Assembly (NCBI GenBank): GCA_017626495.1
Contig: JAGAIP010000003.1
Span: forward strand, 62,001 to 126,000
DNA length: 64,000 bases
Direction of reading: 5' to 3'
Source of the DNA: Clostridia bacterium
GTDB lineage: Bacteria > Bacillota > Clostridia > Christensenellales > Borkfalkiaceae
Every line of letters starts with the position of its first letter. Position 1 is the stretch's first letter. Both the position numbers and the translations under genes were made by a program. This document shows, in pieces, positions 46,905-62,333 of the stretch. Below the pieces are notes generated by a model. The model was not told the DNA's origin. It was given only the letters and a program-made list of their open reading frames with translations, and made no database searches.

Positions 46905-46980
46905 CGAGGCGTAGCGCAGTTGGTAGCGCGCAGCGTTCGGGACGCTGAGGTCGTGAGTTCGAATCTCGTCGCCTCGACCA
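46905..46980 (+). tRNA. tRNA-Pro (anticodon CGG)
   Basis: 76 bases including CCA. Acceptor CGAGGCG/CGCCTCG, D stem GCGC/GCGC, anticodon stem CAGCG/CGCTG around the loop TTCGGGA, T loop TTCGAAT. Anticodon CGG. Confidence 0.95.
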
Positions 46981-47023
46981 ACAAAAAGAGAACTTTTGTC
47001 TACCAAAAGTTCTCTTTTTGTTT
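46981..47023 (+). terminator. Terminator after tRNA-Pro genes
   Basis: A perfect 18-base inverted repeat, ACAAAAAGAGAACTTTTG (46981-46998) with its complement at 47004-47021, followed by Ts. Confidence 0.88.
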
Positions 47024-47025
47024 AT

Positions 47026-47204
47026 CCAAGCCGCAGGCTTGGCATATCATCGCCGCACAACGTGCGGTGCATATCATTAGCCCCTGCGGGGCTGGATATC
47101 ATCACGCGCCCGCGTGCATCTTACCTGCGGCTTGATGATATACAAAACTGCGTTTTGATGATATACCGCAACAAGTTGCGGATGATATACAAGGCTTACG
47201 CCTT
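47026..47204. repeat. Two-armed array of short hairpins with ATATCAT/ATGATAT linkers
   Basis: Seven short perfect hairpins are joined by a 10-base linker. Left arm stems start at 47026 (CCAAGCC-GCA-GGCTTGG), 47053 (CCGCAC-AAC-GTGCGG), 47079 (AGCCCC-TGC-GGGGCT) and 47103 (CACGCG-CC-CGCGTG). Right arm stems start at 47144 (AAAAC-TGC-GTTTT), 47167 (CGCAAC-AA-GTTGCG) and 47191 (AAGGC-TTAC-GCCTT). Left linkers read GCATATCATC or close; right linkers read GATGATATAC (47134, 47157, 47181), the reverse complement. So the two arms face each other. CCTGCGGCTTG at 47124-47134 also pairs with CAAGCCGCAGG at 47027-47037, closing the left arm. No spacers unique as in CRISPR and no long ORF were seen. Confidence 0.85.
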
Positions 47205-47231
47205 GATTTATTTACGAAAGTGTGATATAAT
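47203..47231 (+). promoter_or_regulatory. Promoter of Nmad3-like gene
   Basis: TTGATT (47203-47208) and TATAAT (47226-47231), 17 bases apart. The -35 box overlaps the last hairpin unit of the array. Confidence 0.8.
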
Positions 47232-47264
47232 AACACTGATAAATAAGACCTTGACAGGAGCACT

Positions 47265-48071
47265 ATGAAAATAATTCTCAGTAGAAAGGGCTTTGATTCT
47301 GCTAATGGTGGAATTGTAAGTCCTATTATGGAAGACGGAACCATGTTATCATTTCCAATTCCGTCAAAAGACAAAGATAGCTACGACGACTTGATATATT
47401 GCGACCAACCATACTCTAGAATATTAAAGGACTTAAAATACAAGGGTGGCTTTAACTGTCATGTTGACCCCGACCTATCTGAAGATAGACGAAAAACTAA
47501 AATTGTCAGTTGGTGTCCTATTTTCGGTCAAATCAATTCATCAGCGACATATCTTATGAATAATGTAGATGTTAAGGTTGGAGATTTATTTTTGTTTTTT
47601 GGAAACTATCATAAGGTTAGATATGTTGACGGAAAGTATCAGTACATAAAGAAAACTGGTGATTTTTATAGCGATCGTGATTTGCAGGTTATTTGGGGTT
47701 ATATGCAAGTTGGTGAAATCATAACTATTCCTGAAGAACAAAGAAAATATAGTTGGCATCCACACTCATCAGAGAAAAAAGCAGAAAACATTACAAATGT
47801 TATGTTTAAAGCAAGCGACAAACTTTCTTTTAATGAAAATATGTCAGGAGCAGGACTTCTTGCGTTTAGAGAAGACAGGGTGTTGACTGCTAAAAATTGC
47901 AACAAGGCAACATGGAGAAATAATCCTGTATATGATGTAGGTTCAATAATTGGAAACAGAAAAAATTGTTCAAAAATTCCTAGCGGCATATACTATGCCG
48001 GTATATGGCAAGAGTTGGGATTGAAAGAGACATTGGAATGTGAAGAGTGGGCAAGGTCAATAGTTCTATAA
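47265..48071 (+). CDS. Nucleotide-modification-associated (Nmad3-like) protein
   Basis: A protein of 268 residues, behind AGGAG 4 bases before the ATG. The N-terminus MKIILSRKGFDSANGG, followed by SPIMEDGTMLSFPIP, matches what I recall of the Nmad3 domain, linked by comparative genomics to modified DNA bases in phages and mobile elements. The biochemical role is not known. The gene is AT-rich and favours A/T-ending codons, unlike its neighbours, which points to horizontal transfer. It sits between the hairpin array and a structured terminator, as a one-gene cassette. Confidence 0.72.
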   Translation: MKIILSRKGFDSANGGIVSPIMEDGTMLSFPIPSKDKDSYDDLIYCDQPYSRILKDLKYKGGFNCHVDPDLSEDRRKTKIVSWCPIFGQINSSATYLMNNVDVKVGDLFLFFGNYHKVRYVDGKYQYIKKTGDFYSDRDLQVIWGYMQVGEIITIPEEQRKYSWHPHSSEKKAENITNVMFKASDKLSFNENMSGAGLLAFREDRVLTAKNCNKATWRNNPVYDVGSIIGNRKNCSKIPSGIYYAGIWQELGLKETLECEEWARSIVL

Positions 48072-48153
48072 ATTCCAATTTATCGGTCTGTTCAACTGTA
48101 CGCAAATTTTGATAATGTGTACGCACATTGTATTAAAATAGGTATCTTCACAC

Positions 48154-50297: not shown

Positions 50298-50380
50298 GCG
50301 GATATGGCGGAATTGGCAGACGCGCAGGTTTCAGGTTCCTGTGGGCGACCGTGCAGGTTCAACTCCTGTTATCCGCACCA
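50298..50380 (+). tRNA. tRNA-Leu (anticodon CAG)
   Basis: 83 bases including CCA, with the long variable arm of leucine tRNAs. Acceptor GCGGATA pairs with the 3' strand before ACCA (with one wobble-type position), the D loop has AATTGGCAGAC, and the anticodon loop TTCAGGT gives CAG. The T arm contains GGTTCAACTCC. Confidence 0.93.
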
Positions 50381-50388
50381 TAAAGAAA

Positions 50389-50430
50389 CCATAATATTGA
50401 TACGAAAAATATCGGTATTATGGCTTTTTT
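50389..50430 (+). terminator. Terminator after tRNA-Leu
   Basis: CCATAATA (50389-50396) pairs with TATTATGG (50416-50423), then CTTTTTT. Confidence 0.82.
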
Positions 50431-50548
50431 ATTGCCTAAAGAGGGATGTTTTGCCCTTTTTCGTGGGGTTTATAACAAAAATACAGGCTTGCCGGGATGG
50501 TTTTTGTCCTTGCAAGCATTTTTTGCTTTTAGCAGTAAAATACAAATC

Positions 50549-50669
50549 GTTCAATTTATACCCCTTTCGTTCAATTTATGGGGTATTGTTCAATTTATAG
50601 GTATTTTTTCTACCAGGGCAAGAGAGGTTTTTCTGCTTGACGTTTCTGTGTCTTTATGGTAAATTGAAC
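50549..50669. repeat. GTTCAATTTAT repeat cluster upstream of GNAT gene
   Basis: GTTCAATTTAT occurs at 50549, 50569 and 50588, spaced 20 and 19 bases (about two helical turns), and an inverted copy AAATTGAAC lies at 50661-50669. The set sits 30-150 bases before the GNAT start, where a regulator could bind. The rest of the 319-base gap after tRNA-Leu shows only its terminator. Confidence 0.7.
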
Positions 50670-50699
50670 GAAACAAAATGGAATTTGGGGAGAAACGAT

Positions 50700-51449
50700 A
50701 TGAAGACTATAAGCACTTTGGAAAAAATCAATCATCTGCTAACGGAACAGTTTGCGATTGACTATGGATGTACAGTTGAGGATTTTTGCAGCCAAGAAAC
50801 CCTGGTCACAGAACTGCGCCCCAATGATCGGGCACGAAAGCGTGAGGAATTGGGCGTTTTGTCCATGCTGTCCTTTCACGGAAAGCTGGTGATTGCCGCC
50901 GCACCGGAGCTTATGGATTGGAGCAGATCCGTTTTGGCGAAGCATTGCAGCGCAGAATGGTGCTTTGAAGCAGGTACGCTTATCAGCATTGATCGCAAAT
51001 TACAGGAATTTGGCTATGAGATTGATCAGGCGCACTTGTTCTTTACACCCAGATTCTCGGTTCCCGCGCCGGTACACCCGGTACGATTCCTGCACAGTGC
51101 GGAAATAGCAGAGCTTGAAGACGACGAACGCATTGATGAAGCCTTTCTGTTTGAAGACTATATTGAAGATGTTCTGGGTACCGCAATCTATGATGATGCA
51201 GAAATGCTACTGGCTGTAGCGAGCGCAACGGCAAACAGCGAACGGATGTGGGAAATGGGCGTCAATTCCTTTGCCGAGGGCAAAGGCTATGCTGTTTCAG
51301 TCTTGTCTGCCCTCACACAGGAGATTCTGAATCAGGAAAAAGTTCCTTACTCGGGCACGGCGCTCTCTCATACAGCGTCCCAGAATGTATCTCTGCGGGC
51401 AGGTCTTGTTCCGACTTTTTGCGAGTTAACAACAAAAAAATCGACCTGA
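50700..51449 (+). CDS. GNAT family acetyltransferase-like protein
   Basis: A protein of 249 residues from an ATG behind GGGGAGAAACG. The C-terminal third has the GNAT acetyl-CoA region EGKGYAVSVLSALTQEIL, then NVSLRAGLVP. The N-terminal 120 residues are less certain but fit the two-domain GNAT groups. Codon choice differs somewhat from neighbours, suggesting transfer from another Firmicute. The acceptor substrate is unknown. Confidence 0.78.
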   Translation: MKTISTLEKINHLLTEQFAIDYGCTVEDFCSQETLVTELRPNDRARKREELGVLSMLSFHGKLVIAAAPELMDWSRSVLAKHCSAEWCFEAGTLISIDRKLQEFGYEIDQAHLFFTPRFSVPAPVHPVRFLHSAEIAELEDDERIDEAFLFEDYIEDVLGTAIYDDAEMLLAVASATANSERMWEMGVNSFAEGKGYAVSVLSALTQEILNQEKVPYSGTALSHTASQNVSLRAGLVPTFCELTTKKST

Positions 51450-51580
51450 TCCGCTTGGACAATCTCCACCTTGCTGTGCGAACTTCGCACTGCTTTTGCG
51501 TACGATTACTTCGATTCTGCTCGGTTTGGTTATTGTTAATGCAGGATTACAGTTAATTTTGACCACTTTTCTTTCCATAA
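51450..51580. other. Gap with a small hairpin, no gene seen
   Basis: GTGCGAA and TTCGCAC near 51477-51492 form a small hairpin without a T-run. Nothing else was found before the broken small gene. Confidence 0.5.
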
Positions 51581-51740
51581 CTAGTCAAGTGCTCCCATAA
51601 TAGGATTAAAATCCGTTTTTGCATCAATAATCAATTTCTCATATTCTTCGATGGTGATTTCGTTATGCTGCAACAAAGTTTGAAGAACAAATTTAGTTAA
51701 TTAGTAATAAATCTCGTTTTTTTCCATCTTCTACTGTCAT
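51581..51740 (-). pseudogene. Frameshifted small gene, SHOCT-like tail
   Basis: An ATG at 51740 follows AGGAGGCTCCT. The frame MTVEDGKKRDLLLIN stops at once, but removing one extra base at 51695 gives a continuous 52-residue protein, with KFVLQTLLQHNEITIEEYEKLI following and a stop at 51581. The EITIEEYEKL stretch resembles SHOCT-type oligomerisation tails. Similar small proteins occur near recombinases in Firmicute mobile elements, by memory and not by search. It is AT-rich, like a remnant of a transferred element. Confidence 0.7.
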
Positions 51741-51825
51741 AGGAGCCTCCTGTTTTTTTATTATATACATCACTCTAAAAAACAAAAAAGTCAAGAGGGA
51801 AATGGCATATTTTAAGAAAAATAAA

Positions 51826-51880
51826 ATGGGTGCAAAGACCATTACAAAAATGCACCCATAAATCTAAAAAAAGCACCCAT
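51826..51880. repeat. GCACCCAT repeats
   Basis: ATGGGTGC at 51826-51833 is the inverse of GCACCCAT at 51852-51859 and again at 51873-51880, in a very AT-rich stretch. It could form alternative hairpins; no gene is linked. Confidence 0.6.
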
Positions 51881-51917
51881 AGAAAAATTGTATCAAAATT
51901 TAATATTACTCACAAAT

Positions 51918-62133: not shown

Positions 62134-62145
62134 AACCGTGCAAAA

Positions 62146-62333
62146 TCGAGGAGCGAACGAGCAAGAGTACTTCGTCGGAGGATCGGGAAGTCCGAAGATG
62201 ACGGAGAAAAGGGCATCTTCGCCGAAGGGATAGCTCCCGCCTTACCCCTGGGCATAGCGGATAATACCGCTATGACTGTCACGACCGTGAAGCACTTTTT
62301 TGCCGTTTTCTTACAATTATCGGGGCGGTGCTT
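62146..62333 (+). ncRNA. Lysine riboswitch (L box) with expression platform
   Basis: The leader of asd-dapA shows the conserved elements in order: GAGGAGCGAACG, AAGAGTA (62163-62169), GAAAAGGGC, TCGCCGAAGG (about 62219-62228), CTGGGCATAGCG and GACTGTCAC (62274-62282). They match the lysine aptamer. Downstream, AAGCAC (62290-62295) pairs with GTGCTT (62328-62333), with GCC/GGC inner pairs; this may be the switch hairpin. It is not followed by a clean T-run, so control may be at termination or translation. Confidence 0.92.

Follow-up and report, generated by a model that had tools for sequence, protein, structure and literature searches.

What is the dense cluster of short hairpins that lies between a tRNA-Pro gene and an AT-rich gene in this Clostridia genome? 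The whole 64,000-nucleotide stretch of DNA that was analysed is referred to here as the window, and all positions are counted in it. A sequence-only reading had described, at 47026-47204, a two-armed array of seven perfect hairpins joined by one fixed 10-base linker, and had suggested that it is a structured element of a mobile cassette. Following comparison with related genomes, we give a probability of about one in two to the view that the array forms the structured left end of a small mobile gene cassette found behind terminators, and that its shape signals this end to a trans-acting enzyme. The array and its surroundings consist of the following features.

46905 to 46980, + strand: tRNA-Pro(CGG), the host gene ahead of the cassette
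46981 to 47022, + strand: strong intrinsic terminator with a GTCTACC loop and a T-tract, adjoining the array directly
47023 to 47027, + strand: left boundary TATCC, found in 98 oriented arrays
47026 to 47042, + strand: hairpin 1 (hp1), a 7-bp stem with a GCA loop
47042 to 47051, + strand: reverse linker R1, GCATATCATC
47052 to 47069, + strand: hairpin 2 (hp2)
47069 to 47078, + strand: reverse linker R2, GCATATCATT
47079 to 47093, + strand: hairpin 3 (hp3)
47094 to 47103, + strand: reverse linker R3, GGATATCATC
47104 to 47115, + strand: hairpin 4 (hp4), the centre
47124 to 47134, + strand: segment x, which pairs with the 5' arm and loop of hp1 (47027-47037) as an alternative to hp1
47134 to 47143, + strand: forward linker F1, GATGATATAC
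47144 to 47156, + strand: hairpin 5 (hp5)
47157 to 47166, + strand: forward linker F2
47167 to 47180, + strand: hairpin 6 (hp6)
47181 to 47190, + strand: forward linker F3
47191 to 47204, + strand: hairpin 7 (hp7)
47203 to 47231, + strand: promoter, with TTGATT (array edge), 17 nt and TATAAT
47238 to 47255, + strand: IRL, the left inverted repeat, within the cargo gene's leader
47265 to 48071, + strand: cargo gene Nmad3 (PF18754)
48070 to 48086, + strand: IRR, AAATTCCAATTTATCGG, common to the right ends of other cassettes
48097 to 48140, + strand: right-end direct repeats (TGTACGCA, 21 nt apart), of the same type in L017 and L161
48153 to 48207, + strand: intrinsic terminator closing the cassette

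All seven perfect hairpins and both arms are present in the window sequence, as is the 11-nt pairing between 47027-47037 and 47124-47134 that had been pointed out. The block spans exactly 47023-47208 (186 bases), wider than the limits first given, and it contains the seven hairpins, three linkers in each orientation and the 11-nt segment x. The linker as first described needs correction: the reverse copies R1 to R3 read GCATATCATC, GCATATCATT and GGATATCATC, and the exact reverse complement of GCATATCATC is GATGATATGC, so the arms are complementary with about one mismatch. The array is far above chance expectation, with 0.00 occurrences of two adjacent exact linker pairs expected from shuffles and no match to a reversed control pattern in 101 genomes.

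The collection of homologous arrays came to about 95, nearly all from gut Clostridia. Of 101 relatives, 11 carry the linker pair, and it also turned up in at least 120 stretches of public genomes, where the real arrays come nearly all from Clostridia MAGs, many of ruminant or deer gut. With a covariance model made from 55 arrays, matches were obtained in 35 of 297 genomes and 19 of the 126 genera of the order; occurrence is patchy, and the count in a single genome can reach nine or more. A lack of copies in relatives, which would have told against the first reading, was thus not seen, although the window's own genome has one array locus only. Among 24 pattern matches in IMG/VR, one is a real array (L057:562-679, contig 3300031555_010910) and the remaining 23 are other sequence, mostly coding-like repeats; no similar DNA was found in the phage and plasmid collections searched. 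The array was not described in the literature searched, from which subscription journals and preprints were out of reach. The modal order is terminator, TATCC, hp1, three reverse linkers, centre, three forward linkers, hp7, promoter and cargo gene, with exactly three linkers of each orientation in 57/95 arrays.

It had been proposed that the stems are kept as structure and not as sequence, and the homologues bear this out: letters change, pairing stays, and compensatory changes are found in hp1, hp1-x and hp7. In hp1, 99.5% of cells are paired across 55 homologues (64 two-sided changes); the figures are 95.3% for the pairing of hp1 with x (83 two-sided changes) and 94.9% for hp7 (28 two-sided changes), values above every shuffle and slid control, controls that ignore relatedness. 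The collected arrays contain 228 distinct hairpin sequences with approximately 97% Watson-Crick pairs, and the loops of the reverse arm (C[GNA]G-like) and those of the forward arm (C[TNC]G-like) are reverse complements of each other. No clear strand bias was seen amongst the distinct hairpins (21 G.T to 16 A.C). Three mosaic arrays (L009, L027 and L109) have an hp1 and an x of different sequence types, by which the hp1/x pairing is broken, and this suggests recombination inside arrays.

Folding, which had been put forward as a check, gave results beyond shuffles both for DNA (z -6.7, 0/200 shuffles) and for RNA (z -4.8). In the computed fold of the window array as single-stranded DNA, R1-F3, R2-F2 and R3-F1 pair in a nested manner, and hp2/hp6 and hp3/hp5 project at two predicted four-way junctions; an RNAalifold consensus of the 55 sequences has nested arms similar to those of the DNA fold. 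Within the family, no covariation was found between linker variants of the two arms, so the case for arm pairing rests on other linker families. Four of these, built to the same plan, were found in the fetched loci (AATGAAGT, GTGAAAT, AGTGATAT and AATGATG). Every one of them has arms that are mutual reverse complements, and a pairing of 9-11 nt joins the hp1 side to a central x. Their DNA folds beat shuffles (z -2.9 to -8.7), with AATGATG giving a weak fold in 2/3 arrays and little arm pairing in the best fold of those two. Such complete replacement of the sequence while the plan stays the same speaks for base pairing rather than for a protein that reads sequence. Two-armed arrays with these other linkers lie at L144:4640-4772, L166:821-956, L034:1785-1932, L118:442-544 and L092:3175-3319, and also in the right flanks of L131, L141 and L148.

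The cassette of the window is about 1.13 kb in length (47023 to about 48153), with the array as its left end and Nmad3 as its one AT-rich gene, and is flanked by two terminators, of which the first is the intrinsic one of tRNA-Pro(CGG); that terminator and two tRNA-Pro genes lie to the left of the array. Terminators of the 46981-47022 type recur at arrays behind other tRNAs, the left-end terminator being host-like in one case and element-like in others, and TATCC behind a terminator forms the left side of the 98 oriented arrays with one or two exceptions. At the other edge of the array, TTGATT would supply the -35 box of the cargo gene, the -10 box of which is TATAAT. The 17-nt spacing between the two is found in 37/78 arrays, and a spacing of 16-19 nt in 41/78 compared with about 6 expected; other promoters, or none, stand behind some arrays. 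To the right of the promoter come IRL, one gene, IRR, at least two direct repeats and a further terminator, all of which the window has. A motif identifies the right end for part of the array set only. Cassettes occur in tandem in L139, L159 and L149.

Where enough left sequence was available, 50/91 arrays were found directly behind a complete tRNA gene, with 15 types of tRNA represented, and other arrays stand behind a duplicated tRNA or tmRNA 3' end. Mapping of array ends against loci that have none, as had been recommended, was possible at two sites in sister genomes, where one genome has the array directly 3' of a tRNA or terminator and the other lacks it. Genomes G072 and G099 are syntenic up to the 3' end of a tRNA-Ala gene, past which G072 has a terminator, array and cargo and G099 has a simple terminator. 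At a tRNA-Ser site, G099 has a mini-element and no array; in G072 an array cassette sits directly behind the homologous terminator and is closed by another copy of that terminator. As the sites differ by the array plus a gene, the array was gained or lost together with its cargo. Both sites define the left end, and the right borders are less exact. Mini-elements of 100-200 bp, comprising an inverted T-arm copy, a AAAACAGTCC-like hairpin in the middle and a duplicate of the tRNA 3' end, CCA included, are found behind tRNA/tmRNA genes (L153, L142, L007, L023, L092, L205 and L232), and one occurs in the sister genome without an array. The notion that every cassette ends in an attC-like hairpin of the tRNA 3' end was discarded: such a hairpin belongs to a minority of cassettes and is also seen at an array-free site, so it is treated here as a separate mini-element.

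The gene beside tRNA-Pro had been called AT-rich, and Nmad3 is indeed at 35% GC in a window of 50% GC. The first genes behind arrays are varied, encoding Nmad3, TfoX, GNAT, XRE, Fic, ankyrin, lipase and unknown proteins. The most recurrent is a PF05635 four-helix protein (10/56 first genes; L063, L113, L130, L132, L144, L148, L149 and L177 are such loci); seven aligned members are 82-92% identical, and different genes lie behind them. It is possible that this is a core protein of the system, and it was absent from the viral contigs searched. The nearest relatives of Nmad3 have different surroundings; two of these relatives are close to tRNA-Gly with mini-elements.

The proposal of a structured element belonging to a mobile cassette is upheld by what is observed, namely the anatomy of the cassette, its presence at many tRNA genes, sites with and without the array, varied cargo that turns over, and stem covariation that keeps both the hp1 stem and its pairing with x. 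The cassette, in the order terminator, TATCC-array-promoter-IRL-cargo-IRR-direct repeats, terminator, directly follows an intrinsic terminator, in most cases one that belongs to a tRNA gene, and can be stacked in tandem. In single-stranded or extruded DNA the arms would pair and the hairpins would project from stacked four-way junctions. This shape, and not the sequence, may be the mark of the cassette end for an enzyme supplied in trans, the terminator hairpin may act as the target mark, and the -35 box given by the array edge would allow the cargo to be expressed at once. No known mobility gene is carried by the cassette, and the occurrence of arrays does not follow that of any integrase, HUH transposase, reverse transcriptase or IS21 gene. 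Also weighing against this reading are the missing covariation of linkers within the family, the partial recognition of right ends and the mixed nature of the left-end terminators, and no circle or transposition event was observed.

That lack of a tracking gene also fits ordinary homologous recombination, for instance after DNA uptake, with the tRNA, terminator and array as anchors and the array perhaps a cruciform-extruding hot spot. Recombination at conserved tRNA flanks could spread cassettes without a dedicated enzyme, which counts against the mobile-end reading; the conserved tRNA on the left and the mosaic arrays fit as well. The architecture is, however, kept even where neighbouring genes are without similarity, and the four further linker families repeat the design in different sequence and hence offer no homology, so that we consider homologous recombination by itself unlikely. 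The most economical reading is that the end is recognised by shape by a trans enzyme, or that homologous recombination uses the array as an anchor. A module for expression and insulation, which would shield the cargo from tRNA read-through and give it a promoter without any part in movement, agrees with the promoter spacing and with the terminators on both sides. It is rather doubtful, though, given that some arrays have another promoter or none behind them, that a -35 box needs no two-armed tree with alternative hp1/x pairing, and that the hairpins lie upstream of the promoter and therefore outside the cargo mRNA.

Dispersal of a REP/BIME-like palindrome array on its own, with the cargo an unrelated neighbour, would explain the one-armed arrays that share the linker in intergenic and intercistronic positions. 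On their left, two-armed arrays are nevertheless tied to TATCC and a terminator, and on their right to promoter, IRL, IRR and right-end repeats, the sister sites differ by array plus gene, and Y1 transposase is missing from most array genomes, which makes such dispersal quite improbable. A structured non-coding RNA made from the tRNA side could account for the RNA fold and for the covariation; it appears barely credible beside a terminator between tRNA and array, covariance model matches on both strands, distinct stems without an excess of G.U over A.C, and no Rfam family at gathering score for the array.

A mobile cassette with the array at its end invites comparison with known systems. Integron cassettes with attC are likewise small and single-gene, with varied AT-rich cargo, a folded end site, tandem insertion and a recombinase which would here be presumed in trans; the arrays differ in the two-armed multi-hairpin tree, the cassette's own promoter and the place behind tRNA terminators. 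An integron cassette as such was rejected, the junction of TTTTTGTT with TATCC having by inspection no GTTRRRY (attC core RYYYAAC/GTTRRRY). So was a dedicated tyrosine recombinase in the host: four genomes with arrays (G019, G028, G035 and G056) have one PF00589 gene each, the same count as many array-free genomes, tyrosine recombinases being near-universal. Group IIC introns insert immediately behind intrinsic terminators, as the array cassette does, but no Rfam intron match was obtained, and reverse transcriptase is present in 2/11 array genomes versus 2/14 others. A search for IstB of the IS21 type gave only weak partial matches in every genome, to frames of 307-330 and about 450 aa that are read as DnaC/DnaA-type ATPases. 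REP families are short palindromes with RAYT transposases (PMC3733652). The arrays resemble REP/BIME in having short palindromes in opposite orientations in intergenic DNA, and depart from them in that the stems are free, only linkers and layout being fixed, in the tie to one cassette end and in the lack of RAYT correlation (Y1 HUH transposase, RAYT or IS200/IS605, in 3/11 array genomes versus 5/14 others). With 228 stem sequences, GATGATATAC/GTATATCATC linkers and no GTAG or CGTC tag, the array is not a known REP form, as had been supposed; nor is it CRISPR, its spacers being the palindromes themselves, unlike identical repeats with non-repetitive spacers. The PF05635 protein is shared with 23S rRNA intervening sequences (e.g. 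PMC4990558); these were rejected, as the arrays lie behind tRNA genes and not in 23S rRNA, and most carry other genes.

More tentatively, the arrays may define a new class of gut-Clostridia cassette whose ends are given by conserved DNA shape instead of sequence, a design shared by at least five linker families: a two-armed tree in which four-way junctions are stacked and the hp1/x pairing can switch, inserted behind tRNA terminators by a putative enzyme. If so, integrons would be joined by a second cassette system, working in abundant uncultured gut bacteria and placing small accessory genes behind tRNA genes, and an end of mobile DNA would be read by shape and not by sequence. Branched DNA (four-way junctions) as a recombination signal would become testable, and the array would be a search key to a hidden pool of cargo genes.

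One-armed arrays, with forward linkers only relative to the genes, lie between operon genes or directly ahead of a gene (L081:827-1031, L093:4799-4899 and L090:609-761). Elsewhere in the window, 50298-51900 is possibly a related cassette without a hairpin array: tRNA-Leu is followed by three direct repeats of TCGTTCAATTTATA (50546-50599), a leader resembling IRL, a gene (50700-51449) and repeats of GCACCCATA (51846-51881). A lysine riboswitch (RF00168) is located at 62138-62305.
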